Shown here: positions 11,307 to 29,595 of the stretch, piece after piece | Layout: each line of letters opens with the position of its first letter | Position numbering within the stretch: the first letter of the stretch is position 1 | Assembly: GCF_005116455.1 (NCBI RefSeq) | Contig: NZ_SWBP01000002.1 | Coordinates: 124,001 to 188,000, forward strand | Origin: Pedobacter cryophilus | GTDB taxonomy: Bacteria > Bacteroidota > Bacteroidia > Sphingobacteriales > Sphingobacteriaceae | Length of the DNA stretch: 64,000 bases | Reading direction: 5' to 3' | Program-made: the position numbers and the translations under genes | The notes under the pieces: generated by a model | The model's input: only the letters and a program-made list of their open reading frames with translations | The model's database searches: none | Told to the model about the DNA's origin: nothing

Positions 11307-11310
11307 GCTT

Positions 11311-14300: not shown

Positions 14301-14517
14301 AGAGCAAGGAGATCATGCCCGTATACAGTATGTAAATATGGCTTATAAAATCCCATTAAAACAAGCCCCCATCAGCCAATTGCAGGTTTATGCCAATATG
14401 GCTAATCTGGGGATTCTTTGGAGGGCAAATGATAAAGGAATTGATCCGGAATACAGATATAGTAATTCATTGCCTCCCATGCGTAGCCTGTCTTTGGGTT
14501 TGAGAGCTAATTTTTAA
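11311..14517 (+). CDS. SusC/RagA-family TonB-linked outer-membrane protein
   Basis: This 1068-residue protein starts with a signal peptide (MKMNKYVLIILLGVYLLCAA, cleaved after about residue 26). A carboxypeptidase-regulatory-like beta domain follows (GQLTDSLSGSPLLGATLKVL), then the plug with VVVNTGYQ and the SusC-typical GSRAGNGVIVITTKKG. The rest is a long beta-barrel ending in aromatic-rich LSLGLRANF, a normal barrel-assembly C-terminus. It imports oligomeric nutrients through the outer membrane with TonB energy and pairs with the SusD-like lipoprotein encoded 18 bases downstream. Length and domain order are normal for the family. The substrate is unknown, and no glycoside hydrolase or peptidase gene is adjacent. 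Confidence 0.95.
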   Translation: MKMNKYVLIILLGVYLLCAASGLKAQQMLSGQLTDSLSGSPLLGATLKVLPQDKLYKSNKDGRFNFPVTGAQVQLLISYTGYRLKVLNLKSPFPATLNIAMVPSTLQLNEVVVNTGYQVVPLERSAGSFSLVSAKQLETQVGSDVLSRLETLASGLSFDRTEPFAPKLVVRGLSTINGPRSPLIVVDQFPYEGDLNNLNPNDIESVTVLKDASAASIWGSRAGNGVIVITTKKGVYNQPLKVSFNSFAQSSAKPDLGQIPTMSATNFIDVEQMLYAKGFYNSDYQAADKPPLSPLVEMFFARDEGKLTAQEVNDALAIYRKVDVRRELLDKVYQQRFLQQYHLGLSGGSAKQRWNFSGGFDDGRSELDAPNKRYNLLVNQEIKFSPKIDFRMNLAYTRQQAEDGKDGINTISTAKGSNIYPYATLSNEQGEPLALPRNYSLNYLESQQNKGLLNWFYYPLTDHQYRQASSSTQHFTGSAEASYRILKDLKFSMLYRYEKQDVQSTQLQQEEAYAVRNLINSYSRKATNGEIIYGIPRGAIKDDERSTLNIQQLRAQLNYQHQWKKGELYALAGVERRSLDRFSQSQRLYGFDQDTYTYGSINPLTPYPTWVTGSNSFISDGNSIAAGADHYLSFFANGSYTYLQNYSLTASVRRDASNLYGLSTNKKWNPLWSTGFAWNISGEDFYGLTALPYLKLRTSFGYSGNSNAAQTAVTTIRYRGSSLYTGYPYATFNQFENPELQWETVGMWNIGLDFSSKGNRISGSLEGYRKRAKDLFGTYPVDPTAGVGASVTRNVAAMQGWGADLQLNTINTKGKLRWESQLNLSWYKDKVTDYYLPNVQVSDFVGSVQPGVSGLAGKPVYAIFSYPWAGLSATDGSPQGLLNGSPSVNYQTIMGSEAQLSDLVYHGSAIPLWNGAFTNRFAYKRWDLEVALHFKFAYFFRREALSYSSLYNNWEGHPEFAQRWLAPGDEVNTNVPSLVYPASISRDIFYAGAQIQVEQGDHARIQYVNMAYKIPLKQAPISQLQVYANMANLGILWRANDKGIDPEYRYSNSLPPMRSLSLGLRANF

Positions 14518-14535
14518 TATTAAAATGAGATAAAA

Positions 14536-15882
14536 ATGAAAAGAACATATATTTTATTGGGCATTTTATCAGCCTTCAGTAGTTGTGATAAATTTTTAGC
14601 AGAGAAACCAGATGCAAAACTGGCGGTCATTAATAGTTTAGAGGATGCGCAAGCATTATTAGATTATTATCCCAATGTGGATAGGAATGATGTAGGAGTA
14701 AGTGAGGCCAGTGCCGACAGCTATTTTCTTTCAGATGCCGAATGGGCTAGAAGAGCAGAATCAGATCAACGCATTTACCTATGGGAAAAAGATCAGCTTT
14801 TTATGCCCGATTCTCGTGATTGGAGACAAAGTTATGCCAATATTTATACGGCTAATGCGGTATTAGAAAGTTTAAAGAAAATTAAACGGACCACACAAAA
14901 TGCACTGCAATATGACAATGTAGCCGGACAGGCACACCTGTTAAGAGGTCGTACTTTTCTCATGCTGGTTTGGACTTGGGGTTTAGCCTATGATGAACAA
15001 ACAGCTGCTCAGAATTTGGGAGTCCCACTGCGGTTAAATACCAATTTTAATGAAAAAGTGCCCCGAGCAAATTTAGAGCAAACCTATCAGCAGGTGATAG
15101 ATGACTTGAAGGCAGCAAGTAAGTACCTCCCTTTACGTGGAAATTCTAAATTGAGGGGAAGTAAATTGGTGGCTTGGGGATGGCTATCCAGAACTTATCT
15201 GAGTCAGCGGGTTTATGAGCCGGCGGCAAGCTATGCCGATTCTGTATTGCAAGTGCAGAACACCTTATTAGACTACAATCAATTGAATAGTGCCGCTGCT
15301 TTTCCTATACCAGAACTGAATGCAGAGATTGTAATGGATACCAGATTATCTACTCCGGCAACATTGGCTCAATCCCGAGCTAAGATGGATTCTACCTTGA
15401 TATTATCTTATGCTGCAAATGATTTAAGAAAGAAGATTTATTTTAGAATAAATACGGATAAAAGCTATGCATTTAAGGGAAATTATGCAGGCGGACCTAC
15501 TTTCTTTAGTGGGATTGCGGTGGATGAAATGTACCTCAACCGAGCGGAGGGATTTGCCAGAACAGGTTTGCTGCAAAAAAGTATGGATGATTTAAATACC
15601 CTGCTGCTTAAAAGACATAGTACTGGAACCTATGTGCCTTTACAAAATTTGAATCAAACCTTACTGATTGAAAGGGTATTGGAGGAGCGAAAGAAAGAAT
15701 TAATCTTTAGGGGTTTAAGGTGGATGGACATCAAAAGATGGAATGCCGGTGGTGCTCAGCTCACTTTAAAAAGGAGGATCAATGGGCAGGAATATGTGTT
15801 GCTTCCTAATGATTTAAGGTATGCCATAGCCATTCCGCAGAATGCATTAGAATTAGGTGGTATTGAAGATAATCCCAGATAA
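14536..15882 (+). CDS. RagB/SusD-family nutrient-binding outer-membrane lipoprotein
   Basis: The 448-residue protein starts with a short leader and the lipobox AFSSC, placing the lipidated Cys at about residue 17. The EKPDAKLAVINSLEDAQALLDYY segment and the later AGQAHLLRGRTFLMLV helix match the SusD TPR scaffold. The ERKKELIFRGLRWMDIKRWN segment near the end is a hallmark of the family. It forms the lid of the SusC-type transporter encoded just upstream. The gene ends at a strong bidirectional terminator, so the operon is TlpA-SusC-SusD. Confidence 0.93.
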   Translation: MKRTYILLGILSAFSSCDKFLAEKPDAKLAVINSLEDAQALLDYYPNVDRNDVGVSEASADSYFLSDAEWARRAESDQRIYLWEKDQLFMPDSRDWRQSYANIYTANAVLESLKKIKRTTQNALQYDNVAGQAHLLRGRTFLMLVWTWGLAYDEQTAAQNLGVPLRLNTNFNEKVPRANLEQTYQQVIDDLKAASKYLPLRGNSKLRGSKLVAWGWLSRTYLSQRVYEPAASYADSVLQVQNTLLDYNQLNSAAAFPIPELNAEIVMDTRLSTPATLAQSRAKMDSTLILSYAANDLRKKIYFRINTDKSYAFKGNYAGGPTFFSGIAVDEMYLNRAEGFARTGLLQKSMDDLNTLLLKRHSTGTYVPLQNLNQTLLIERVLEERKKELIFRGLRWMDIKRWNAGGAQLTLKRRINGQEYVLLPNDLRYAIAIPQNALELGGIEDNPR

Positions 15883-15891
15883 AATGAAATA

Positions 15892-15925
15892 AAGAAAAGG
15901 GGTGTTTTAAACCCCTTTTCTTATC
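15892..15925. terminator. Bidirectional terminator between SusD and the convergent DUF6520-like gene
   Basis: A perfect AAGAAAAGGGGT / ACCCCTTTTCTT stem with a short loop, A-rich on the left and T-rich on the right. It lies ten bases after the SusD stop and just before the stop of the minus-strand gene. Confidence 0.85.
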
Positions 15926-15931
15926 ATATAC

Positions 15932-16264
15932 CTACTCTGCTTTAGTAGCGAAGGCATCATCAACTACAGCTTGATTGCTGCCATAACCATTAAGAATGGT
16001 TTGTAATTCTGACTGCGTATCAACGCTTTGGTCAACTTCCAATACACAAGGAATCTCATCTAGCTGGTCGCATGAAGGAATGTCCATGGCATCAATTAGC
16101 GTATACTCACTGCTGGTTTTGCTTTGACTTAAGGCATTGCCATCAAATCTCCAATAGGCATTTACCCTTTTAGATGATTTTACGGGTTTGAATGCAACAG
16201 TACTCACTGCTAAAATGATTCCTAAAAAGAGTGCGCTTGCACCCATAATTTTTGATCTATTCAT
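15932..16264 (-). CDS. Small exported protein, DUF6520-like
   Basis: This 110-residue protein has a hydrophobic leader (ALFLGIILAVSTVAF) and a short mature part with two Cys (IPSCDQLDEIPCVLEV) that could form a disulfide. In size and layout, and in having a MauE/DoxX-like gene next to it, it resembles the DUF6520 family of Bacteroidota, whose function is not known to me. It is downstream of and co-directional with the MauE-like gene (137-base gap) and converges on the SusD gene. The Cys pair and the redox-type neighbours (TlpA and MauE) suggest that the group handles thiols outside the cytoplasm, which is inference. Confidence 0.7.
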   Translation of the reverse strand: MNRSKIMGASALFLGIILAVSTVAFKPVKSSKRVNAYWRFDGNALSQSKTSSEYTLIDAMDIPSCDQLDEIPCVLEVDQSVDTQSELQTILNGYGSNQAVVDDAFATKAE

Positions 16265-16401
16265 GATATTAATTTTTAATAATTACTGTTTTTAATGAGG
16301 TGAACAGCCTCACCTTGGCTTTAATGATCCCTGGAGATCCTGATCATTTCAGTCGGATTTGTTTTGGGGGGTGGAGCCGGATCCGATGTTCCTTTGCGGT
16401 T

Positions 16402-16869
16402 TCAGGTTTTGTTGCCCATGTTTCTCCTTTCTGCTATAGCATCAGCTGGTGAATGCTTTAATTTTTCAAAATATATTGCTGTTATCGATAAAGCCAGGAA
16501 GAAAAGATTAAAAAAAAGATGTTGTGTCCAGCTCATTTCCGAGAGGACGCCACCACAACTACAGGGTACCCTATCAAAAACCAGCAGCTTTACCAAAATA
16601 ATGTACAGGGTAAAGGCGGTCAATAAAAGGGTAGAAAGATAAAGTCCAACTTTATAGGTGTACTTCACTAACAATAAAGTCACCAATAGCAATTCTAAAA
16701 AAGGGAGTGCAAAGGCGAGCACATCAGCCATCCAATTTGGGAACACCTGGTTACGCATTTGCGAAAGACTGAGTGAAGGATCTAATAATTTAGCGATGGC
16801 GGCATAGCTCCAAAGCAGGGTTAAAAAGAAAGTAGTGCTTACTCTTATGGACGAATAGTTCATCATCAT
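16402..16869 (-). CDS. MauE/DoxX-like redox-associated membrane protein
   Basis: The frame extends to a TTG at 16884, but the first ATG is at 16869, giving 155 residues. The hydrophobic profile suggests four membrane helices. The FFLTLLWSYAAIAKLLDP start and the VPCSCGG motif near residue 105 are characteristic of the MauE/DoxX-like group. Members are thought to maintain or transfer redox equivalents to periplasmic thioredoxin-like proteins. The nearby TlpA-like fusion on the opposite strand is a natural partner. A hairpin with a T-rich tail (AAAGGA...TCCTTTT, about 16898-16920) lies just upstream of it. Confidence 0.78.
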   Translation of the reverse strand: MMMNYSSIRVSTTFFLTLLWSYAAIAKLLDPSLSLSQMRNQVFPNWMADVLAFALPFLELLLVTLLLVKYTYKVGLYLSTLLLTAFTLYIILVKLLVFDRVPCSCGGVLSEMSWTQHLFFNLFFLALSITAIYFEKLKHSPADAIAERRNMGNKT

Positions 16870-17104
16870 CTGTTTTTTTATCAAATAAAACAGACCAAAA
16901 GGAGGAAAAACTTCCTTTTATTTTTATGAAAAAAAATTAATGTAAGAACCAGAAGAAAGCCTTTTTTTGAAGAGCAAACATTTTTTTTACCCCAACAGAC
17001 CAAAAAGCTTGCTCAAGGCTAAAAAATAAACAGAGGAGGGATGACCGATCTCTTTTTGCAGCATTTAACTTCAACCTATAAAAAAACGCTGCTGAATAAA
17101 ATCT

Positions 17105-17394: not shown

Positions 17395-17910
17395 TGAATT
17401 TTTGTCAGGCTAAGCGGAGTCGAAGCCTCTCTCTTGCATTGTGGATAGATAAAACGCAGGGTCAGCTAAAGCGAGACCCTGCTGGGACAGATTGCTGTAA
17501 TTTGAAATTATTGTCAGGCTGAGCGGAGTCGAAGCCCATTCTTTTGATACCGGAAACCCCTTCGACTCCACTCAGGGTGACACAGTGGTGGATTTGAAAT
17601 TATTTGTCAAATCCTAAAAAAAACCACCCCCTAACCCCCGCCAGCGGGGGACACTTTGCGTAATGGCCATTTAACAGAATCTTAATTTAAAACAAAAACG
17701 TTGCTTACGAATCCCAATTTTTGTCAGGCTGAGCGGAGTCGAAGCCCATATCTTGTAAAACGCATAACCCTTCGACTCCGCTCAGGGTGACATAGTGGTG
17801 GATTTGAAATTATTTACTTAAAAAACGCAGGGTCAGCTAAAGCGAGACCCTGCTGGTACAGTTGCTGTAATTTGAAATTATTTGTCAGGCTGAGCGGAGT
17901 CGAAGCCCAT
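17395..17910. repeat. REP-like hairpins and other small palindromes
   Basis: The 780-base gap to 18155 has no gene in its first 600 bases. It contains the REP arm GTCAGGCTGAGC...GTCGAAGCC at about 17403, 17514, 17724 and 17881. Partner arms CCCTTCGACTCC...CTCAGGGTGACA lie at about 17560 and 17768, so 17514-17582 and 17724-17792 form REP-pair hairpins. The palindrome CAGGGTCAGCTAAAGCGAGA-CCCTG occurs at about 17458 and 17825. A CCCCCGCCAGCGGGGG hairpin lies at about 17635-17650 and recurs at about 21183. Confidence 0.88.
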
Positions 17911-18154: not shown

Positions 18155-18796
18155 ATGGGAAAATTTCAAAAAGGAATCCTGGGTGGATTCTCCGGCAAGG
18201 TCGGAACAGTGATTGGTAGTAACTGGAAAGGCATAGATTATATGCGCAGTTTACCAAGAAGGAACAAAAAAGATCCTACACAAAATCAGGTAGATGTGAG
18301 GATTAAATTTCTGTTGGCTATCAATTTTTTAAAACCAGCCAGCAGTATCATCACCAATGGTTATCGCAACATTACGGGTTCTTTAACCCCGCTTAATTAT
18401 GCGGTTTCCTACCATCTTAAAAATGCCATTATAGGCAACAGTCCAAATTTCGAATTAGATATGGCAAAGGTGGTGATTAGTCGTGGCGAACTCACTGGCA
18501 TTTCACAGCCTGTATTGAGTAGCGCTGTTGCGCAAACCATCAAGTTTGCCTGGACTGATAATTCTATGGTAGGTTTAGCAAAAGCAGATGATCAGGTGAG
18601 TGTATTGGTGTATCAGAAAGACTTGAACCTTCATATTATTTTAGAAAATGGAGCAGCAAGAGCTAGTGGCGAATTGGTGCTGGCTACCCCGGTCGAGTTT
18701 TCTGGTAAAGATGCAGATTGCTGGATGACCGTAAAAAGTGCGCAAGGCAAATTGATTGCTACTAGTGCTTATTTAGGTAAGATCACGGTGCTTTAA
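18155..18796 (+). CDS. DUF6266-family protein
   Basis: This 213-residue protein starts MGKFQKGILGGFSGKVGTVI, the glycine-rich N-terminal signature I associate with DUF6266 in Bacteroidota. The NWKGIDYMRSLPRR segment follows. The remainder is predicted beta-rich with no catalytic motif or membrane segment. The function of the family is not known to me. The gene has its own promoter-like box upstream and a terminator (18818-18846) downstream. It is followed by a membrane protein, a CHAP-type hydrolase and a lipoprotein with a C-terminal anchor, which suggests a structural or effector component of a lysis or release cassette (inference). Confidence 0.75.
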   Translation: MGKFQKGILGGFSGKVGTVIGSNWKGIDYMRSLPRRNKKDPTQNQVDVRIKFLLAINFLKPASSIITNGYRNITGSLTPLNYAVSYHLKNAIIGNSPNFELDMAKVVISRGELTGISQPVLSSAVAQTIKFAWTDNSMVGLAKADDQVSVLVYQKDLNLHIILENGAARASGELVLATPVEFSGKDADCWMTVKSAQGKLIATSAYLGKITVL

Positions 18797-18817
18797 AATT
18801 AATCAAATGTTTAACCT

Positions 18818-18846
18818 AAGTCCCGGGCGATGTTCCGGGACTTTTG
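18818..18846 (+). terminator. Terminator after the DUF6266 gene
   Basis: Stem AAGTCCCGG / CCGGGACTT with a T-run. A possible TTG start at 18844 for the next gene falls inside this terminator, which argues for the later ATG at 18859. Confidence 0.8.
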
Positions 18847-18858
18847 ATCAAAAAAATT

Positions 18859-19218
18859 ATGAAACAGATTATTCATCAAATACAGGTTAGTCTTCGGCAG
18901 GAATACCTTTTGGCTATCATTTTATTTTTGCTCTTATTTCTTATGCCCAATTGGTTTCAACAATGGTTTCCCACTGCTGCTTGGATTGACCAAGGAATAT
19001 GGTCGGTATTATTATTGGCCATGCTGAGCTATATGTTTGTTCTTGGTTTAAGCTTTTGGCTCTATAAGCGCACCTGGAAAATTTTGGGTTTACCCAGTTT
19101 ATTATTTATGGTTTCACAATTTAAATACTTAACGCTATGGCAACAATTCGTGTTATACTGGTTATCTTTTGCTTTACTGCTTTTGGCAGGGATACTGTGC
19201 CTGTTGGCAATATTTTAG
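18859..19218 (+). CDS. Small three-helix membrane protein, holin-like by context
   Basis: This 119-residue protein is almost entirely hydrophobic. Helices are predicted near residues 15-32 (LLAIILFLLLFLMPNWF), 45-68 and 95-118 (the C-terminal FALLLLAGILCLLAIF), with a basic KRTWK loop between the last two. No family was recognised. Its size, three-helix topology and position directly before an overlapping exported CHAP hydrolase and a spanin-like lipoprotein match class I holins, but this is inference from context. The 3' end overlaps the hydrolase gene by 82 bases in another frame, a coupling often seen in lysis cassettes. Confidence 0.6.
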   Translation: MKQIIHQIQVSLRQEYLLAIILFLLLFLMPNWFQQWFPTAAWIDQGIWSVLLLAMLSYMFVLGLSFWLYKRTWKILGLPSLLFMVSQFKYLTLWQQFVLYWLSFALLLLAGILCLLAIF

Positions 19219-19682
19219 CAGATGATGTACAAAGGAGAAAGCATTTACTGTCTTATGCCCAACTGCAAATAGGGGTAAGAGAAGCCAGCGGAAATAATGA
19301 TGGGAAAGCGGTAGAAATGTATTTGCAAACTGTGGGTTTAAAAAAGGGCCCTCCCTGGTGTGCGGCATTTGTGAGTTGGGTATTTCAGCAAGCTGGTTAT
19401 TCGAAGCCTCGTACGGCTTGGTCACCAGCCTTATTTGGACCTAAAGTGAAATCCAAAGAAATTATTCCAGGCAATTTATTTGGGATATGGATGGTCCCTT
19501 TAAATAGGATTGGTCATGTTGGATTGATAGAAAGTAGGCAAGGCCATTGGATCATGACGATAGAAGGGAATACCAATTTAGCTGGAGGGAGAGAAGGAGA
19601 TGGGGTATATCGTAAAAGGAGAGCTATTAAATCTATCCATCAGTTTTCAGATTGGCTTCCGCCATTGGAGGTAGTGCCATGA
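19137..19682 (+). CDS. Exported CHAP-type cysteine peptidase/amidase, probable peptidoglycan hydrolase
   Basis: The 181-residue protein starts with a short hydrophobic leader (MATIRVILVIFCFTAFG). The domain shows GPPWCAAFVSWVFQQAG (nucleophile Cys near residue 75), RIGHVGLIES with the catalytic His near 127, and the following TIEGNTN. This is the usual CHAP Cys-His-polar arrangement. Such enzymes cut peptide or amide bonds in peptidoglycan. No in-frame Met lies between the chosen start and the catalytic domain, so the start at 19137, inside the preceding gene, is the only sensible one. The stop overlaps the next start by four bases (ATGA), indicating coupled translation. Confidence 0.8.
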   Translation: MATIRVILVIFCFTAFGRDTVPVGNILADDVQRRKHLLSYAQLQIGVREASGNNDGKAVEMYLQTVGLKKGPPWCAAFVSWVFQQAGYSKPRTAWSPALFGPKVKSKEIIPGNLFGIWMVPLNRIGHVGLIESRQGHWIMTIEGNTNLAGGREGDGVYRKRRAIKSIHQFSDWLPPLEVVP

Positions 19683-20149
19683 TAAAGTTTTTGGGATGGT
19701 TGCTGCTGCTGACTCTTTTTTGTTCCTGTAATTTAATCAGAGGAGTAAAAAGCCATATGCAGAGAGAAAAGACAATAATGGAAGAAAATCTGGTGCTTTT
19801 GATGAAACAGGATAGCTTGAGCGTGGAGCAAAAAGACAGCTTTAGTGTAGCACAGCACAAATTAATGCTCACCATTTTTCCGGAGGGGGAATATAGTTTG
19901 GATTTAAAAAGCGGAATGAAAGCTAAAGGCGGCAAAATTATGGTCGCTATGGAAACCCAACAATTGGTCAAACTTTTGGAAAAGCAGGCTTTTCTGAACT
20001 CTTCCCTAAAAATAGGGATACAACAGGCTAAAAGAATAGCAGTCAGTAAACAGGAGAAAAAAGAGGTGGAAAAGCCCTTAAAGGGTTTTTGGTTGTTTTT
20101 GCTCCTGCTCATTTTATTGGGAGGGTTTATTTATAGGAAGATGAAATAG
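19679..20149 (+). CDS. Lipoprotein with C-terminal membrane anchor, u-spanin-like by architecture
   Basis: The frame opens at 19652, but the ATG at 19679 has a GGAGG site 8-13 bases upstream and begins a true leader (MIKFLGWLLLLTLFCSC). The protein is then 156 residues. A lipobox near residues 14-17 predicts lipidation. The middle is helical and charged, with AVSKQEKKEVEKP near the end, and GFWLFLLLLILLGGFIYRKMK forms a C-terminal membrane helix with a basic tail. An N-terminal lipid anchor plus a C-terminal inner-membrane helix is the design of single-gene spanins that fuse the two membranes of phage hosts. No sequence family was recognised, and the role is inferred from shape and neighbours. 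Confidence 0.6.
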   Translation: MIKFLGWLLLLTLFCSCNLIRGVKSHMQREKTIMEENLVLLMKQDSLSVEQKDSFSVAQHKLMLTIFPEGEYSLDLKSGMKAKGGKIMVAMETQQLVKLLEKQAFLNSSLKIGIQQAKRIAVSKQEKKEVEKPLKGFWLFLLLLILLGGFIYRKMK

Positions 20150-21300: not shown

Positions 21301-22750
21301 CTACCATTAGGACACATCTTAAGTTTTAAAAGCAGCAAGTTTCCAACCTTGATAAATATTTTCAAATTTATCAAGACCTCTTTTTATGATGATAGGACCT
21401 GCGGCCTGTGATTTACGATTTCCTTTCCACCCCCCTAATCTTGCGATAATCCAACTTGCCCAGGAGAGTTTATTTTTTGGATAAGGATTACTTGTTTTAG
21501 CGGTTCCATTTAAATGATTTTTTTCAATTGCTTCTAAACAATTAATTTCTTGATGATCAAACACTTCGCTAAGATCTTGACTGTCCTCTTTTCCATATGC
21601 TAGATAAAGCTGCATCACTCTTAATGCAGAATTTAATACCATCAAAAACAGTTTTCTAATCGCCCATCCAGTCTCTAATTGACTATCTTCTATCTGAAAA
21701 CCTTGTTTTTTTAGTATCCGAAACAATTGTTCAATATACCATCGCTGTTTATAGCGGTAAACTACCATCAAGGCTTCCTCTAAGCTTAAGGTGACTTGGT
21801 CCGTTAGTAATCTCCAGCAAATACAATCTTTAGAATCATTGTTTTTTTCTTTTACCTCTATAGCATACAATTCTTTTTCGTCTATTATTCCTTCGGTAAC
21901 ACCTTTAGTAGGCTTTTTGATGCTTACTCTTTGGTACCTTACCTCCATCTCCACAACTCTTTTGGTTTTATCTTTACGCAGGTCGGCTGGTAGAGCCAGT
22001 AAATATTCTCCGCAAACAGGAGCCTCTTTCAATACCGAATATAATTTAGACCCATCGGCTAATCTTCGGTTGTCTCTACTTCGAATAATCAAACTGGTCC
22101 GATGATCCGGAATTAAGCAGAACTGTTCATAAATATCTCCTTCTCTATCCTGAATAATAGTGATATGAGTGGCTTCTGCTAAAGTGGCTTTGGCTTTGTT
22201 ACTCGCTTTAATCCACTTGTAAGATTCCTTTTCTTCTATAGGTTCTGTTTTATAAACCTTGGTAGTATTATTTGATTTGTCCTTTGTGCGATGCCATAAC
22301 TGGAGATCACAAAAGCCAAGCATGCTTTCGTTATTGGCATCCAGCACCAAGCTTACATGAGTAAGAAATCCTAATCCTACTTTATTTCCCACCAAACCTA
22401 ATCCACTAGCTGGTTTGATGTTAGCATTGTTACTTAACCCCAGAGAACTGCTGTCTTGAATCACCAAAACCTCTCTGCCTACTGTGTTTTTAGCACAACG
22501 CTGAGTCATTTCCCTAATCAAATCAGATTCCTTAACAGACTCATTACCTAAAAATCGATAAAACCCTTTCTGCTCTGCTTCACTTTTTGTTGCTGAATGG
22601 ATAATAGAAGATCTGCTCAGCAGTAAGGATGATGAGATCATCTCTGCTCGACGCTCTAAGCGCTTATCTCCTAAAATACCTTCAAAATCAGGCTTATGCC
22701 CTATATGCTCCATGCCTCAAAGATATTTTTTATTTGTGTCCTAATGGTAG
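21301..22750 (-). mobile_element. IS4-type insertion sequence, 1450 bases, apparently intact
   Basis: Perfect 16-base terminal inverted repeats: CTACCATTAGGACACA at 21301-21316 and its complement at 22735-22750. The element is flanked by an 11-base direct repeat CTGTCCGGTAG (21290-21300 and 22751-22761), a typical IS4-family target duplication. One transposase gene fills it on the minus strand. The uninterrupted target reads as a CCTGCC...GGCAGG palindrome inside a REP arm. Confidence 0.92.
21319..22713 (-). CDS. IS4-family DDE transposase
   Basis: This 464-residue protein has the IS4/Tn5-like layout. An N-terminal DNA-binding region (GDKRLERRAEMISSSLL) is followed by a catalytic core with Asp87 in VLVIQDSSSL, Asp189 in TIIQDREGDIYE and Glu328 in RWYIEQLFRILKKQGFQIE, the YREK-type signature. 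All three catalytic residues are present and the frame is uninterrupted, so the enzyme is probably active. It lies between perfect terminal inverted repeats with little extra sequence. It is unrelated to the neighbouring gene clusters and simply landed in a repeat region. Confidence 0.93.
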   Translation of the reverse strand: MEHIGHKPDFEGILGDKRLERRAEMISSSLLLSRSSIIHSATKSEAEQKGFYRFLGNESVKESDLIREMTQRCAKNTVGREVLVIQDSSSLGLSNNANIKPASGLGLVGNKVGLGFLTHVSLVLDANNESMLGFCDLQLWHRTKDKSNNTTKVYKTEPIEEKESYKWIKASNKAKATLAEATHITIIQDREGDIYEQFCLIPDHRTSLIIRSRDNRRLADGSKLYSVLKEAPVCGEYLLALPADLRKDKTKRVVEMEVRYQRVSIKKPTKGVTEGIIDEKELYAIEVKEKNNDSKDCICWRLLTDQVTLSLEEALMVVYRYKQRWYIEQLFRILKKQGFQIEDSQLETGWAIRKLFLMVLNSALRVMQLYLAYGKEDSQDLSEVFDHQEINCLEAIEKNHLNGTAKTSNPYPKNKLSWASWIIARLGGWKGNRKSQAAGPIIIKRGLDKFENIYQGWKLAAFKT

Positions 22751-22792: not shown

Positions 22793-23008
22793 TTAATCTT
22801 CTTTTGGATTTTCATAGCAATACTTTTGTAAAGACCTGCTGTATTTGATTAAATGTCCTTCTTCTTTTAGTTCATTGATCCATTTGCCTATAGTTTCAGG
22901 GGTACAGTTAAAATAATTTGCAGCATAATTTCTTGAAATTAATCGACCTTTTTTGATCATGATTAAAACGATATGCAAATTTTCGCGGTGTTGCCGATAT
23001 GTTGACAT
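22793..23008 (-). CDS. Small HTH DNA-binding protein divergent from the LanB genes
   Basis: This 71-residue protein is a single winged or simple HTH domain. The MIKKGRLISRNYAANYFNCT helix-turn and the PETIGKWINELKEEGHLIKY recognition helix and turn are visible. It has no sensor domain. It is divergently oriented from the dehydratase genes, with a shared 143-base spacer holding a GGGGTAA/TTACCCC palindrome, so it is a plausible local regulator of the RiPP locus. No named family was recognised. Confidence 0.68.
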   Translation of the reverse strand: MSTYRQHRENLHIVLIMIKKGRLISRNYAANYFNCTPETIGKWINELKEEGHLIKYSRSLQKYCYENPKED

Positions 23009-23047
23009 GAGGAACTCAATAGATCATAAATTTGCATGTTTGGTGTA

Positions 23048-23069
23048 GGGGTAAGAAATTTATTACCCC
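23048..23069. promoter_or_regulatory. GGGGTAA/TTACCCC palindrome in the HTH-LanB divergent spacer
   Basis: A 7-base perfect inverted repeat with an 8-base spacer, midway between the HTH gene start (23008) and the first LanB gene (23152). It lacks a T-run, so an operator is more likely than a terminator. Confidence 0.45.
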
Positions 23070-23151
23070 AAAGCGAGTTTTTACTTGCTGAAAGGAGAAT
23101 ATAATCCTTATCAATCTGGTTTTGACAGGGATTTGTGCAGTTAATTTGTCC

Positions 23152-23814
23152 ATGATGGAAACACTTCAATTTCATGAACAATTATTAGTTCGTATCCCAC
23201 GCTTAAGTATAGGCGATGCAGCTCAAAGTCCTGATCAATACCTTGATCATCCGGTTTTTAGAGAAGCCATTTATTTGGCCAGTGATGTGGTCTATCAAAA
23301 ATTAGTCAAACATGATTTTTTATATCATGATTTAGAACCTAAATTGTTAGTCACTTTGCAACGATATCATCAACGAATGTGCTATCGCAGCACACCATTT
23401 GGTGGTTTTTCTGCAGTCTCTACCCTTCCATGGAATACAGGTAATACAACTTCCACACCTTTACTGTTAGACCTAGATCGTTTTCGTATTCATTATCAGA
23501 AGGCTGCAGTTTTTAAAAAAAGGAAAAGATTTAGTGTAAAACAATGCTACTGCGTGAACCCTAGTCTTTATGTTTATGGAGCGCACTATCGCTATTACCT
23601 TTTGGCCGACCAAACTACCAAACGCTGGGTTTTTGCTTTAAATGAAATTGAAATCAACCCTTTAATCGCCTTTCTCGTACAATTACGAAAGCCTTTAAAT
23701 GTAGGGAGCTTTAAATCTATCAGGCAATTTCAAAAGTATGGAGCATACCAGTTGCAAAAGTTTTTCCAAAATCTTTGTCGTTTACAATTCTTAGTACCCT
23801 GTGATGTCGATTAA
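23152..23814 (+). CDS. Lantibiotic dehydratase (LanB) N-terminal fragment
   Basis: The frame opens at a TTG at 23122, but the ATG at 23152 is preferred (220 residues). It covers the start of the LanB tRNA-dependent glutamylation domain: LLVRIPRLSIGD, then FREAIYLASDVVYQKL, then YHQRMCYRSTPFGGFSAVS, which corresponds to the family signature R-x-TPFG-x-F. Full LanB enzymes (about 1000 residues) glutamylate Ser/Thr of a precursor peptide from Glu-tRNA and eliminate to dehydro-residues. Here the gene stops within the glutamylation domain, 14 bases past the start of the next frame, which continues the same protein. Either a natural two-subunit form or a frameshift or deletion explains this. Confidence 0.75.
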   Translation: MMETLQFHEQLLVRIPRLSIGDAAQSPDQYLDHPVFREAIYLASDVVYQKLVKHDFLYHDLEPKLLVTLQRYHQRMCYRSTPFGGFSAVSTLPWNTGNTTSTPLLLDLDRFRIHYQKAAVFKKRKRFSVKQCYCVNPSLYVYGAHYRYYLLADQTTKRWVFALNEIEINPLIAFLVQLRKPLNVGSFKSIRQFQKYGAYQLQKFFQNLCRLQFLVPCDVD

Positions 23815-25939
23815 TAAATTTATAGATAAGCCTTCAGTTTCAGGCAGTTCTTTTAATGCCTGTACATTTTTTAGGGTAGATGGAGCGCTTGATCCTATCA
23901 TTAAAGAAAAATTGCGGATAGGCATAAAGCTATTGCAGCAACTATCTTTTCGGGATGATTATTCTGCTTTTCAGCTGTTTAAAAATGAGTTTAAACAAAA
24001 ATATGATCAAAGATTTGTGCCCTTATTGCAAGCTTTAGACCCTGATATGGGGATAGATTATCTTCAGCTTTCAGATAAAACAAAGCTGATGAATAGGCAA
24101 TGGTCAAAAGTCCATTCCGTTTTAATGAATAAATGGACGGCATTAGGTGTTTGTAGCCATGCAAAGATTGAACTGACTGACGAGGATTTGCTTTTAATAG
24201 GGGGAAGTACAAAGGAGCCATTTTCACCAAGCTTGATGGTTTTGTTCCAAGTGCTTGACGAGCGGGTTTTTGTTATTGCTGCCGGTGGTCCAAGTGCCTT
24301 ACAAATGATGGGACGCTTTACGAAATTTGATGCGGATTGTTTTGCATTAGCAAAGTCTGTTATCCATCAAGAAGAAAAGAATAATCCGGAGGTGATATTT
24401 GCCGAATTGAATCATCAGGAAGAATTGAATACTGAAAATATAAGTGGTCAGCAACTGCGTACTTATCAAATTTCTTTGATGTTAGCACACTATCACATTG
24501 GACCTTATGAAATAGCTTTAAGTGACCTTTATTTGGGTTTGGAAAAGGATATGCTTATTCTTTATTCTAAAGCACATCAAAAAAGAATTATCCCTAGATT
24601 GAGTAGTGCCTATAATTATCAAAGAAGTGATTTTGGTCCTTTTAGATTGCTTTGTGATTTGCAAAAAGAAGGTTTGAATGGTCAGTTGTCTTTTAAGATG
24701 GAAGAATACTTTCCAAATCTTCATTATTATCCGAGGGTGTGTTATCAGGATGTGATTTTATCGCCAGCACAATGGCATTTGAATAGTATGCTATTTGAAA
24801 TAGTGGGCAATAGCCATCAGAGACAAGATCATTTCTTTAAGATCATGAAGGAATACCAATTGCCTGTAATATTTGTATGGGTACAAGGGGATCAAAAATT
24901 AGTAGTAGATACGTTAAGACAGCAGGATGTGGAGCTTTTTTTACAAAGTATGAAAGGTGTAGCGACTTTGATAATAGAGGAGCATTTTGTGGCAGATCAT
25001 CCATTGATCAAAACAGCTGAAGGAGCAACTTATCAGCATGAGTTGATGGCCATTATGGTTCAGCAAAAAGCAGTTTATCAGCATGTAGAGAGGGTAATTG
25101 TTGATGAGCAGGTTGAAGATGAACGCTTTAAACGAGATTTTTTTCCAATGAGTGACTGGTATTATTTGATCATTGAACTTCATCCCTCGCAATGCAATGA
25201 GTTGCTATTGACCTGTATAATTCCTTTTGCTGAATTATTAAAGGCTAAAAATTTAATCTTAGAATGGCATTTTTTACGGTATGCAGACCCACAACCCCAA
25301 TTACGTTTCCGATTTAGACCCAAAATTTTGAAGAAAGCTGGTCATGTAGTTTTGCAAGATCAGTTCACCAAATTGTTAAAGCAAATGGAACGATACCCAT
25401 TTGTGAAAAATGTAAGCATTGCCATCTATAAGAGAGAACTGGAGCGATATGCTATTCTGGGAATGGCACATACAGAACAATTGTTTACTTTCAGTAGCGC
25501 ATACGTTGCTAAATTATTAGGAAAAAAAGAGCATCAAGAGGCCTTATTTACCCTTCAGTTGTGGGCTTGTTTTGAATGTTTAGGTTTGGAAAGTACTGAA
25601 ATTGGAAAGATCTGTTTTGAGCAGTATGTGCACATGAAAAATTTATATGGTTTAGCTGTAGATCAAAAGATAATGGGACTGCGCTTTAGAACAGAACGAG
25701 TTCAATGGCAACAGTACAGGTTTGCCCACCAGCGCATAGCTTTGATTCAGGATATTTATCATTTGGCGCTAATAGAGAAATTAAATAAAATAGGTTTAAA
25801 TCATAAAATTAACATGTTGTTTACCTTTTCTCATTTACTGTACAACCGATATTTTGAAAAAGATCCTTTACGGGAGGAAATTTTTATTTATTACGCATTG
25901 AGTCAGCTGGTAAAAGATCCTAGAATGATAGGTGCTTGA
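23804..25939 (+). CDS. Lantibiotic dehydratase (LanB) remainder with SpaB-C elimination domain
   Basis: About 711 residues from the ATG at 23804 (a GTG at 23801 is also possible). The first part continues the glutamylation domain: FKNEFKQKYDQRFVPLLQAL matches the VPLL-x-LDP region, and IALSDLYLGLEKDMLILYSK then IIPRLSSAYN matches the conserved PRL-x-SA-x-N region. The C-terminal third has WYYLIIELHPSQCNELLLTC and WHFLRYADPQPQLRFRFRP, typical of the SpaB-C / thiopeptide-type elimination domain. The first 60 residues look shorter than the usual linker after the N-terminal part, so some sequence may have been lost at the junction. It overlaps the upstream gene, supporting coupled translation. 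Confidence 0.8.
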   Translation: MSINKFIDKPSVSGSSFNACTFFRVDGALDPIIKEKLRIGIKLLQQLSFRDDYSAFQLFKNEFKQKYDQRFVPLLQALDPDMGIDYLQLSDKTKLMNRQWSKVHSVLMNKWTALGVCSHAKIELTDEDLLLIGGSTKEPFSPSLMVLFQVLDERVFVIAAGGPSALQMMGRFTKFDADCFALAKSVIHQEEKNNPEVIFAELNHQEELNTENISGQQLRTYQISLMLAHYHIGPYEIALSDLYLGLEKDMLILYSKAHQKRIIPRLSSAYNYQRSDFGPFRLLCDLQKEGLNGQLSFKMEEYFPNLHYYPRVCYQDVILSPAQWHLNSMLFEIVGNSHQRQDHFFKIMKEYQLPVIFVWVQGDQKLVVDTLRQQDVELFLQSMKGVATLIIEEHFVADHPLIKTAEGATYQHELMAIMVQQKAVYQHVERVIVDEQVEDERFKRDFFPMSDWYYLIIELHPSQCNELLLTCIIPFAELLKAKNLILEWHFLRYADPQPQLRFRFRPKILKKAGHVVLQDQFTKLLKQMERYPFVKNVSIAIYKRELERYAILGMAHTEQLFTFSSAYVAKLLGKKEHQEALFTLQLWACFECLGLESTEIGKICFEQYVHMKNLYGLAVDQKIMGLRFRTERVQWQQYRFAHQRIALIQDIYHLALIEKLNKIGLNHKINMLFTFSHLLYNRYFEKDPLREEIFIYYALSQLVKDPRMIGA

Positions 25940-26067
25940 TCCCAGATCAATATTTTAACCATAGCGGGACCTTAAATAATGGTTTTTAAGCATTAAACTT
26001 CACTTTGTTGACCATGGAGATTATATTTTAACAGCAATATTTCTGCGCCTAGCTGATGGAAACGACC

Positions 26068-26817
26068 TTAATGGTCACCTTTCTTATTTGCTCTTCTATC
26101 CGTAGTCAATAATTTGGTGTTTAACTGCATTTGTAATTGTGCTCTGCAAGCAGAACCAACGGGAAGTTTAGCGCCATTTTCCATTTGGACTTCATGGTAT
26201 TGAAAAGTGCTCATCTTATCTATATTGATCAGATATGATTTATGTATTTTGACAAAATTCTCTTTGTTGAGTTTATATTCTAATTCTTTAAGGGTGAAAT
26301 AAGCGATATATTTACCCTGTAGCGTGTGTAGGGACACATAATTATGTAAAGATTCTATATAAAGCAGGTCCTGATAGTAAATTTTAATGATTTCTCCTTG
26401 TTTATTTCCTTTGATTAAGAAGTATTGATTGTCTAATTCTACATAATTTGTTTTTGCGGTTTGTAAACGGCTTTTCACTTTGATGACTGCTTGAAGAAAT
26501 CGGGCATAAGAAATGGGTTTTAATAAATAGTCGTAAGCGTCTTTCTCAAAAGCTTGAATCGCGTAATTTGGATAGGAAGTAATAAAGATTACTGCGGTAT
26601 GTCCTTGTATCAGACTGGCCAGTTCCAAACCATTGATGCCAGGCATATCAATATCTAAAAAAGTAATTTGATTTTTACCTGGTGCGGTAATCAAAGGGAG
26701 GATATCCCTTGGATTAGTAGTGGCTTTTTGTAGAAAAAGGTGTGGAGTCTCTGAAATATAATCACTGATAATTTCTAATGATGCGGGTTCATCATCTACA
26801 ATAAAACAATTAAACAT
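26068..26817 (-). CDS. LytTR-family response regulator
   Basis: This 249-residue protein has a receiver domain with the acidic pair in FIVDDEP, the phospho-acceptor Asp in TFLDIDMPG near residue 54-56, and the conserved Lys in YLLKPISYARFLQAV. The C-terminal LytTR DNA-binding domain shows LLYIESLHNYVSLHT and FVKIHKSYLINIDK. It should bind direct repeats upstream of target genes when phosphorylated by the partner kinase, whose stop codon overlaps its start by eight bases. It lies between the LanB genes and the candidate precursor, so it likely controls RiPP expression (inference). Confidence 0.92.
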   Translation of the reverse strand: MFNCFIVDDEPASLEIISDYISETPHLFLQKATTNPRDILPLITAPGKNQITFLDIDMPGINGLELASLIQGHTAVIFITSYPNYAIQAFEKDAYDYLLKPISYARFLQAVIKVKSRLQTAKTNYVELDNQYFLIKGNKQGEIIKIYYQDLLYIESLHNYVSLHTLQGKYIAYFTLKELEYKLNKENFVKIHKSYLINIDKMSTFQYHEVQMENGAKLPVGSACRAQLQMQLNTKLLTTDRRANKKGDH

Positions 26818-27922
26818 AAGCTTGAGGTTTAGATAGGTTAATTTTTAAACGTAAAAAGAAAGTATGATTTTTTTGGTAGTAAACCATTTCATGTTGTTGA
26901 GGATAAAACAATGCCAGTCTCTTGGTCAGGTTTAATAATCCTAAGCTATTTCCTGATTGTTGATCCTTTCTGATAGGGTTACTTGTTTTTAATAAAAAAT
27001 ATCCCTTACGGAAGGATAAATGTATTCGCCCTGGTTGTTTAGCATCACTAAGTTCACCATGTTGAAACATGTTTTCGACCACGGTAATTAAAATATAGGG
27101 GAGGATGAAAGGGTTTTTATCTTGTGGTTCAATGAAATTTTTCACAACAATATGAAACGACTTTCTTAGTAATTGTAATTTAATGAAATGAGAAATATAG
27201 TTTAATTCGTCTTTTAATGGAACCGTAGAGGTAGAACTTTTACCCATTAAATTATAGCGCATCAATTCTGCAAATGAAAGTAAATGTGAGGCTATGTTTT
27301 TATCGACTTTCCGGATTTCGTTATACAAAAAATTTAGTTGATTGAATAAAGCATGAGGATGGATTTGTGCTTTGATAAAAGCATTTTCTGTAAGTAATAA
27401 ATCAGTTTTTAATTGTATGGCCTCTAATTCACTGGTTAATTGTGTTTTTTCTAATGCGGAGATGTTTTTGTTTTTTTGAATCACAGTTAATGCCGTCCAA
27501 TATGCTGTACTTAAACCCAAAATATAGAGCGCTCTATAAATACTGGCCAATAGGAAAACAGGGTTAGTGGGCGATAGGGCAAGAGGGTTAATTTGTAAAT
27601 AAAAGAGCAAATAATAAATTCCATATCCGCACAGATAATAAAAAAAGAGTTCTAAAATTATAGCAAGGGCTAGTTTATGAATTGATTTTAAGGTTTTTTT
27701 GACCATCCTGTTTAATACCAGATAAGTATGGATATAAAACAAAGTGGCATAAAGTAGATAATGGATTAAGTAATCTAAGAAATGATGAAAATAGCCATAA
27801 AAACTAGCGGCTAAACTTACCTCATAAGTGATGAAAATTAACCACCCCAGTAGATGAAAAAATATCGTTTTCGAATTTTTTAAATCCAATAATAGATCAC
27901 TGATATCACGCATTGTTTTCAT
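26810..27922 (-). CDS. LytS/YehU-type sensor histidine kinase
   Basis: The frame extends to 28021, but the ATG at 27922 (or 27913) fits better: the upstream residues are atypical, and a later start leaves about 90 bases of divergent promoter space before the small gene on the other strand. The resulting protein is about 370 residues with four to five membrane helices in its first 170 residues. The phospho-acceptor region AQIHPHALFNQLNFLYNEIR is the His_kinase family motif. The ATPase domain has ILPYILITVVENMFQHGEL and the later NSLGLLNL. It has no large periplasmic sensor, so the signal may be membrane-associated, for example a peptide. It forms an operon with the LytTR regulator. Confidence 0.88.
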   Translation of the reverse strand: MKTMRDISDLLLDLKNSKTIFFHLLGWLIFITYEVSLAASFYGYFHHFLDYLIHYLLYATLFYIHTYLVLNRMVKKTLKSIHKLALAIILELFFYYLCGYGIYYLLFYLQINPLALSPTNPVFLLASIYRALYILGLSTAYWTALTVIQKNKNISALEKTQLTSELEAIQLKTDLLLTENAFIKAQIHPHALFNQLNFLYNEIRKVDKNIASHLLSFAELMRYNLMGKSSTSTVPLKDELNYISHFIKLQLLRKSFHIVVKNFIEPQDKNPFILPYILITVVENMFQHGELSDAKQPGRIHLSFRKGYFLLKTSNPIRKDQQSGNSLGLLNLTKRLALFYPQQHEMVYYQKNHTFFLRLKINLSKPQAYV

Positions 27923-28009
27923 TTCAGCAAACGAAAGATGTTGTTCGGGTAAAAAACTTGTAATTAAAGGAGTTGCGTTATAAATTAAATGTAAATAAAA
28001 TAATATAAA

Positions 28010-28144
28010 ATGATGAAACAATTAGAGGAATTGCCCAAAATCAAGGTCAAAAGACGATTCATTTCTGAATCTAAAAAGAAGGAGAGTAAGTGTTTTACAG
28101 ATCCTACAGTAATTATTCTAACAACAGTAACTTATGTTGGTTAA
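28010..28144 (+). CDS. Candidate RiPP (lanthipeptide-like) precursor peptide, 44 residues
   Basis: This small frame is too short for the usual gene length cut-off. It reads from ATG 28010 (or 28013) to TAA 28142. The first half is charged and helical (KQLEELPKIKVKRRFISES), like a leader. The second half is a short hydrophobic segment with one Cys and five Thr (KCFTDPTVIILTTVTYVG), the residues that LanB and cyclases would act on. No double-glycine cleavage site is seen. It is divergent from the LytTR two-component genes, lies 2.1 kb from the split LanB, and is followed by a strong terminator at 28168-28202. This supports a real, separately transcribed gene. No LanC, protease or exporter gene is in the window. 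Function is inferred from context. Confidence 0.55.
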   Translation: MMKQLEELPKIKVKRRFISESKKKESKCFTDPTVIILTTVTYVG

Positions 28145-28167
28145 TAATTTATTTTAGTCTTTGAATG

Positions 28168-28202
28168 CCCCGAATAATTAATTTTTTTCGGGGTGTTTTT
28201 TT
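28168..28202 (+). terminator. Terminator of the candidate precursor gene
   Basis: Stem CCCCGAA / TTCGGGG followed by TGTTTTTTT, 23 bases after the small frame's stop codon. A dedicated terminator supports transcription of the small gene. Confidence 0.85.
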
Positions 28203-28211
28203 AACCTAAGA

Positions 28212-29540
28212 TTAGGTACCAGCTTCCGCGGCGATGAGCGGCGAGAGTATCATTAGAAAACTGATTCCCAAAGGTTCACCACTAAAGCAAGCCAGTATTC
28301 CAAACCACGGGGATCCCGAAATGAATTCGGGATGACAGTAATAGAGGAGGGTTCGTCTTTCAAAGGGTTGGTGTTCCAAAGGTTCATCGTTTATGTAAGC
28401 CAGTGTGTCAAAACTCAAAACCCTTCGACTCCGCTCAGGGTGACAAGTAATACGGTGGGTTCGTCTTGCAAAGGCCTAGATTTCCATTGGAATATGAATT
28501 CCAAATCAAGCTACAGAACTAGCCAGACAACCCAAAGTACAGCGTCAAATTCCGCCTTGGCGGTTGCGGATAGCAGAACAGAAATAAAAGCAGAACCTTT
28601 GGAAGCAAGCGGCGAAGCGGTGGCTTTTTGGTTCCTTTTCAGCTAAAGGAACCTGCGTTAGCATGCTTGAGAGCAAAAGAAACAATAAAAAACCTGCGAA
28701 AAAAGGAACTAGGCCTCCACGGCAATGAGTGGCGAGAGTATCATTGGAAAACTAATTTTCAAAGGTACATCGCTTCTTAAAGCCAATGTTCAATACGACA
28801 AAACCCTTCGACTCCGCTCAGGATGACAGGAGGGTCAGAGTTCGTCTTGCAAAGCATCGGATCTCCAAAGGTTCACCACTAAATTAAGCCAGTATTCCAA
28901 ACTGCGGGGATCCCGAAATGAATTCGGGATGACAGCAAGAGAGGAGGGTTCGTCTTGTAAAGAGTTGTGGTTCAAAAGGTTCATCGCTGATGTAAGCCAG
29001 TGGTTAAAAAACCAGAACCCTTCGACTCCGCTCAGGGTGACAATTAATACGGTGGGTTCGTCTTGCAAAGGATTGGATTCCCATTGGAATACCTATTTCA
29101 AATCAAGCTACAGAACTAGCCAGACAACCCAAAGTACAGCGTCAAATTCCGCCTTGGCGATTGCGGATAGCAGAACAGAAATAAAAGCAGAACCTTTGGA
29201 AGCAAGCGGCGAAGCGGTGGCATTTTGTTACTTTTTTGCTAAAGAATCCTGCGTAAGCATGCTTGAGGGCAAAAGAAACAATAAAAAACCTGCGAAAAAA
29301 GTAATAGGCACCCGCGGCCATGAGCGGCGTGAATATCATTGGAAATCGGATTTTCAAAGGTTCACCACTTATTTAAACCAGTATTCCACAACCCAAAACC
29401 CTTCGACTCCGCTCAGGGTGACAGGAAAGGGGCAGGGTTCGTCTTGCAAAGAATCGAATTCCCAAAGGTGCATCACTAAATTAAGCCTTATTCCTCACCA
29501 CAGAGATCCCGAAATGAATTCGGGATGACAGCAAGGAGGG
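28212..29540 (+). repeat. Composite repeat array
   Basis: No gene seen in the 1.4 kb up to the GT2 gene. It has the same modules and orientation as 8.3-9.7 kb. Two near-identical long TTCCGCCTTGGCG(A/G)TTGCGG modules lie at about 28485-28770 and 29078-29365, in the form GGCGAAGCGGTGGC without the CCTGCCGGCAGG insert. Type 1 REP arms lie near 28420, 28803, 29017 and 29399. Type 2 palindromes lie near 28308, 28907 and 29506. Open frames here are repeat translations. Confidence 0.88.
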
Positions 29541-29595
29541 GAAGTTAAACAAATCCAATTTTTTTATTCCCTATAATTTCTTTAAAATTGAACCC

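Follow-up and report, generated by a model that had tools for sequence, protein, structure and literature searches.

Within the 64,000-nucleotide stretch of the Pedobacter cryophilus genome analysed here (the window), we found an unannotated gene for a 44-residue peptide, in a locus that also encodes a LanB-like dehydratase, a winged-HTH protein, a LytTR response regulator and a LytS-type histidine kinase. It belongs to a widespread family of loci in Bacteroidota in which a Cys-poor, Thr-rich peptide is accompanied by a LanB enzyme and by a dedicated pair of sensor kinase and regulator; most likely the family is a peptide signalling system. Our preferred explanation of the whole locus, held with moderate confidence, is a self-regulating peptide signalling module; dehydration, export and sensing of the peptide are the steps that we infer. 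A preliminary description of this DNA had proposed a short peptide gene as the substrate of the dehydratase, and all the genes that it named are present.

An unannotated precursor peptide with a conserved Thr-rich core

The peptide gene (28010-28144, forward strand) encodes MMKQLEELPKIKVKRRFISESKKKESKCFTDPTVIILTTVTYVG. It is divergent from the kinase gene and, as previously described, is followed by a terminator of its own, a hairpin with a T-run (28163-28198, forward strand; fold -16.6 kcal/mol, z -4.55). The peptide consists of a basic leader (KLxKKTxFxFK-like) and then a Thr-rich core around DPT. The core, TDPTVIILTTVTYVG (28097-28141, forward strand), contains five Thr and no Cys and is conserved, with DPTV----TVTY identical in three same-genus peptides although their LanB enzymes share only 26-30% identity. 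The end of the peptide had been called rich in both Cys and Thr. The latter is correct, but the sole Cys of the window peptide is absent from both same-genus relatives, which also rules it out as part of the active core.

The first search covered 18 same-genus genomes. The two best-matching peptide relatives each lie beside a LanB gene, and their genomes are the only others of the genus, among those searched, that have a LanB. We built a profile from the three seed peptides and searched 251 genomes of the family with it, which yielded 11 more matches (E up to 0.013) outside the three seed loci. All 11 immediately adjoin a LytS/LytTR pair and eight adjoin a LanB gene; the positions of kinase and LanB genes played no part in this search, so this step is unbiased. 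Later peptides were chosen near kinase genes by a Thr-rich rule. This larger set is therefore partly circular, and its independent checks are dN/dS and the promoter tests described below. Every one of the 13 genomes with checked peptide loci carries a LanB gene, versus 115 of the 251 in the whole sample. The kinase is the more constant neighbour: five peptide loci have no adjacent LanB gene (it is encoded elsewhere in those genomes), compared with none of the 11 profile matches without a kinase.

Purifying selection is strong: close pairs of relatives have dN/dS values of about 0.03-0.26, and the coding test suggested in the preliminary description came out in favour of a gene. In one pair (L106a/L109a) an indel prevented a codon-by-codon alignment. 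Precursor genes also occur in tandem arrays of up to six copies that share one core, and in one family the core of paralogous tandem copies shows 12 synonymous and no nonsynonymous changes. Many core positions differ between subfamilies. The locus L195 (7701-8658) has six precursor genes in tandem, mostly 151 bp apart, with the common core FSTDPTANTILMTQSSMSNI(F/Y)NK.

Relatives occupy the equivalent kinase-side position in the two same-genus genomes and in many others, and changes in close pairs are mostly synonymous, which places the small frame beyond chance. The 44-residue frame is a real, previously unannotated precursor gene, and we are nearly certain of this. The opposite reading, a functionless chance frame, could appeal to its shortness and to the lack of any Pfam or NCBIfam model matching the peptide or its relatives, but its probability is negligible in view of the conserved sequence, position, operator and terminator; the profile matches beside kinase genes and the dN/dS values in relatives rule it out.

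A conserved leader and Thr core next to LanB homologues, which had been put forward as a supporting comparison, were found in about 75 loci. The same layout occurs in Pedobacter, Mucilaginibacter, Daejeonella, Hufsiella, Olivibacter, Flavihumibacter, Niabella and Pontibacter. When the whole phylum was searched with the peptide profile, the matches were confined to the same family, plus one marginal match. However, LanB-anchored searches find the system outside that family as well (e.g. in Flavihumibacter, Niabella and Pontibacter), so divergent members escape a search that uses only the peptide profile.

The LanB enzyme and its probable substrate

As had been noticed, the window's LanB is encoded in two overlapping frames. 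The first (23152-23814, forward strand; PF04738 positions 2-195) contains the N-terminal part, in which RMCYRST corresponds to R83, R87 and T89 of NisB. The second (23804-25939, forward strand; PF04738 positions 279-648 and PF14028) contains the rest of the glutamylation domain and the elimination domain, with R464, R786, R826 and H961 kept. These assignments come from the NisB alignment and from conservation: across 55 kinase-linked LanBs, R83, R87, R464, R786 and H961 are invariant, while T89 is kept in 51 and R826 in 54. The active-site residues for glutamylation and elimination are thus intact in the window LanB, split over two frames.

In same-genus relatives LanB is a single open reading frame of 885-940 residues, and the split within a variable linker leaves the activity of the window's enzyme uncertain. 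The break could have inactivated this copy, though not the family, leaving the peptide unmodified. Such strain-specific decay would fit with the single frame in relatives, with the IS4-family transposase gene that adjoins the HTH gene (21319-22713) and with the second LanB of L099, which is interrupted by a stop. We nevertheless regard decay as unlikely, if the most serious of the competing readings, because both parts are intact, their roughly 930 codons contain no further stop and every catalytic residue is kept. The break lies in a hypervariable linker, the second frame has its own start codon inside the short overlap, and the operators and the peptide are intact. The window LanB may be a working split gene, or the break may be a recent frameshift or a sequencing error. 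Among the LanC-type LanBs of L223-L240 (Bacteroidales, Chryseobacterium, P. borealis), two overlapping frames are frequent, split near the boundary of the elimination domain.

A kinase and regulator were found in 38 of 40 LanB neighbourhoods; these were taken from the top of a list ranked by similarity to the seeds and hence do not sample the LanBs at random. As controls we used lower-ranked and out-of-family LanBs, which mostly adjoin LanC or a C39 exporter, are mostly without the kinase, and have precursors that match NF038153. Both kinds lie close together in Pedobacter psychrodurus (L186), one LanB with Cys-rich NF038153 precursors and the other with the kinase, the regulator and a Cys-free peptide. 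The LanB tree shows clustering by kind (6 changes versus 15.6 when shuffled), without each kind forming a single clade.

Peptides with similar leaders tend to have similar LanBs, also when the other genes are allowed for (partial r 0.15, p 0.003), a correlation expected if LanB recognises the leader. With the linkage described above, this makes the peptide very probably the substrate of LanB.

A predicted linear dehydropeptide

The preliminary description had reported no LanC, and this extends beyond the window: no LanC (PF05147) was found in the window's own genome, and none was found by motif in the 40 LanB neighbourhoods. Lanthionines are not expected, since only 9 of 51 peptides have a Cys within the last 25 residues. 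Thr accounts for 28% of the last 20 residues. The catalytic residues are invariant or nearly so, and the LanB enzymes should therefore dehydrate Thr; as LanC is missing, the product should remain linear. We thus consider a linear product containing dehydrobutyrine (Dhb) to be likely, in agreement with the earlier suggestion of a non-cyclised dehydropeptide, which the absence of LanC from the whole genome and related loci favours. Such a LanB-dependent linear dehydropeptide should show a LanB genetically linked to a conserved, Thr-rich, Cys-poor candidate substrate, and this is what the loci contain.

None of 36 peptides matched the NCBIfam leader families (FNLD-type, NF038153/NF038158), whereas control LanC-type precursors match NF038153 at about 1e-12. 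Membership in the class I lanthipeptides was rejected, given that LanC, a conserved Cys and a known leader are all lacking. The peptide loci have no linked or recurrent exporter or leader peptidase, and the window's own genome has no C39 peptidase, in line with the lack of such genes noted before.

The two-component system as the most constant partner

The kinase gene (26810-27922, reverse strand; PF06580) encodes a LytS-type protein with about four N-terminal transmembrane helices. In its structural model (pLDDT 86), the kinase part resembles GanS (6swk). The LytTR response regulator (26068-26817, reverse strand; PF00072 and PF04397) has a counterpart in all 54 kinase loci whose genes were clustered into families. 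The only near-universal gene families around these 54 loci are the regulator, the kinase and LanB; no immunity or export gene is among them.

LanB enzymes usually make antimicrobial RiPPs, and the product might accordingly be a bacteriocin-like linear dehydropeptide, with the two-component system serving only to control production or self-protection. The differences in core sequence between subfamilies and the tandem precursor copies would suit an antimicrobial. We judge this unlikely, however, since no immunity or export gene is near-universal, the cores are under purifying selection and identical between paralogues, and the kinase is a steadier neighbour of the peptide than LanB is.

The signalling reading requires that the kinase sense the peptide product, which we think somewhat better than an even bet. 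Co-variation between the core and the sensor region of the kinase was not significant (p 0.27), and we rejected it as proof of sensing. A PDB fold search with the sensor domain returned only kinase domains as top matches. In the model, the loops between the kinase helices are very short, which suggests recognition within the membrane. These modelled loops, like the lack of a linked exporter or C39 peptidase, could also mean that the peptide is never secreted and acts, modified or not, as an intracellular or envelope regulator of the kinase that LanB modification would tune. That alternative seems improbable to us: a leader-core layout with LanB linkage is typical of peptides that are matured and cleaved, and unlinked general proteases and exporters could serve.

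A shared putative operator

When the regions upstream of 49 peptide genes were sampled for motifs, a LytTR-like box emerged, TTGGTGTAATAAATT, with an information content of 12.6 bits versus 8.1-8.6 bits in shuffles. The box is found in 40 of the 49 promoters, in most about 50 nt 5′ of the start codon, and scores of at least 9 were reached in 39 of 49 peptide promoters versus 0 of 49 in the comparison. A partial repeat, a TTTATC-like half-site, lies 21 bp upstream of it. LytTR sites usually take the form of a direct repeat spaced in this way.

A scan of the window placed one box, TTCGGGTAAAAAACT (27944-27958, forward strand; 10.8 bits), 51 nt upstream of the ATG of the peptide gene, with the half-site TTCAGCAA at 27923-27930. 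Another, TTGGGGTAATAAATT (23057-23071, reverse strand; 18.3 bits), lies 48 nt upstream of the HTH gene and has the identical half-site (23085-23092) at the identical distance of 21 bp. The latter box is the best-scoring in the window by a matrix from which the window's own site was left out. A genome-wide operator search gave six matches versus three with a control pattern, and the HTH box is the only match in a clear promoter position. A weak LytTR-like box also lies upstream of the MauE gene (16981-16995, reverse strand). A sigma-70 scan was uninformative.

The HTH gene (22793-23008, reverse strand; 71 residues) is divergent from LanB, and proteins 53-60% identical to its product are divergent from LanB in L048, L049 and L095. 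Daejeonella-type loci conserve this protein as a partner of LanB; the preliminary description understated this, and also that the HTH gene has the same putative operator as the peptide gene. The LanB-HTH intergenic box is strong in L049, but its scores in L048 and L095 are weak. In L095, LanB and the HTH gene are on a different contig from the peptide and kinase genes, yet the box is still there; in some relatives the box is upstream of lanB itself. Judging from these sequence patterns, the HTH gene is probably an output regulator, and its co-regulation with the peptide gene through the box is likely.

The two-component system is not only the peptide's most constant partner but is tied to the peptide promoter by the putative box. 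Two features by which a peptide-pheromone two-component system would be recognised are found: peptide promoters that carry a putative LytTR-like direct-repeat operator, and a peptide gene that is consistently linked to genes for a membrane kinase and a regulator (all 11 best profile matches; about 25 named loci).

Genomic neighbourhoods and conjugative elements

In some Mucilaginibacter loci, L098 among them, the peptide gene is followed on the same strand by a gene for a protein of about 390 residues, then by rteC and conjugal-transfer genes. Proteins of about 390 residues without a Pfam match are encoded directly 3′ of the peptide gene in L098 (12337-13512) and L111 (12316-13509), and in L098 this gene sits between the peptide gene and rteC.

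The window's own locus is without transfer genes; like others, it has a SusC/SusD/MauE cluster nearby. This cluster (9714-16884: thioredoxin-like protein, SusC, SusD, a small secreted protein and MauE) recurs in about ten loci, and its equivalent directly adjoins LanB in P. psychrophilus (L012). A DUF6266 gene is followed by genes for a small membrane protein, a CHAP-type amidase and a lipoprotein-like product (18155-20149), and in P. glucosidilyticus the LanB locus has a similar trio nearby (L013, 4684-6037). The window's locus is flanked by dispersed repeats with CCTTCGACTCCGCTCAGGGTGACA (28200-29560 and 17400-17900).

Proposed mechanism and relation to known systems

We propose that the 44-residue gene product is a precursor whose basic leader would be recognised by LanB, which would glutamylate the core Thr residues and then eliminate to give Dhb. 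The product would stay linear, there being no LanC and no conserved Cys, and would be exported and trimmed by enzymes encoded elsewhere. The four-helix LytS-type kinase would sense the trimmed product and phosphorylate the LytTR regulator, whose binding to the direct-repeat operator at the peptide gene would provide positive feedback, and whose binding to the operator at the divergent HTH gene would provide output. In the Mucilaginibacter elements, the order of peptide gene, 390-residue gene, rteC and transfer genes plausibly means that the peptide module gates conjugation.

Several known systems share parts of this arrangement. The pinensin-type class I lanthipeptides of Bacteroidota (NF038153) also combine a LanB with glutamylation and elimination domains and a short precursor with a basic, Lys-rich leader, but our loci lack LanC, a conserved Cys, a double-Gly leader and a linked C39 exporter. 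The leader of Bacteroidota class I lanthipeptides has the form LxLxKx5L (PMC7268733). As in the Agr-type and nisin NisRK systems, a small peptide gene adjoins the gene for its own membrane kinase and has a promoter architecture of the autoregulated kind, and the regulator is of the LytTR type, as in Agr. Unlike in Agr, the hosts are Gram-negative Bacteroidota, LanB takes the place of AgrB, the predicted product is linear and contains Dhb, and signalling is here a proposal; unlike in nisin, there are no lanthionine rings. Goadsporin and the thiopeptides are RiPPs made with LanB only or a split LanB, by Ser/Thr dehydration without LanC. The predicted chemistry resembles that of these and of the dehydrazoles (PMC10676384), but azole-forming enzymes are not among the recurrent neighbours, Thr takes the place of Ser, and there is a dedicated kinase and regulator. 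The Mucilaginibacter loci, with a two-component system adjoining rteC and transfer genes, recall conjugative elements of the CTnDOT type, in which RteA/RteB and RteC exert control, but a LytTR system with peptide and LanB occupies that slot, and the window locus has no transfer genes.

Our literature search found no paper describing the peptide-LanB-kinase system, and since no Pfam or NCBIfam family covers the peptides either, the peptide family appears to be undescribed. One survey was built around lanthipeptide precursors and LanC (PMC7268733) and another was limited to Bacteroidales (PMC10352776), so both would be expected to miss the system. Bacteroidales records do contain LanB with a LanC-like gene, contrary to the latter survey.

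To our knowledge, little is known about peptide quorum sensing in Bacteroidota. The loci may represent a widespread quorum-sensing class in this phylum, in which a LanB-made, Thr-dehydrated linear pheromone acts through a dedicated LytS/LytTR pair, on the chromosome or on conjugative elements where it would control rteC and transfer; we give this broader proposal an even chance. As a candidate signal family, with about 75 loci here, it is missed by LanC-based lanthipeptide mining, and it would give LanB a use without ring formation. Even if the signalling half fails, a new family of LanB substrates would stand. The peptide, kinase and putative operator offer a testable handle on regulation in these bacteria, including the transfer of conjugative elements.
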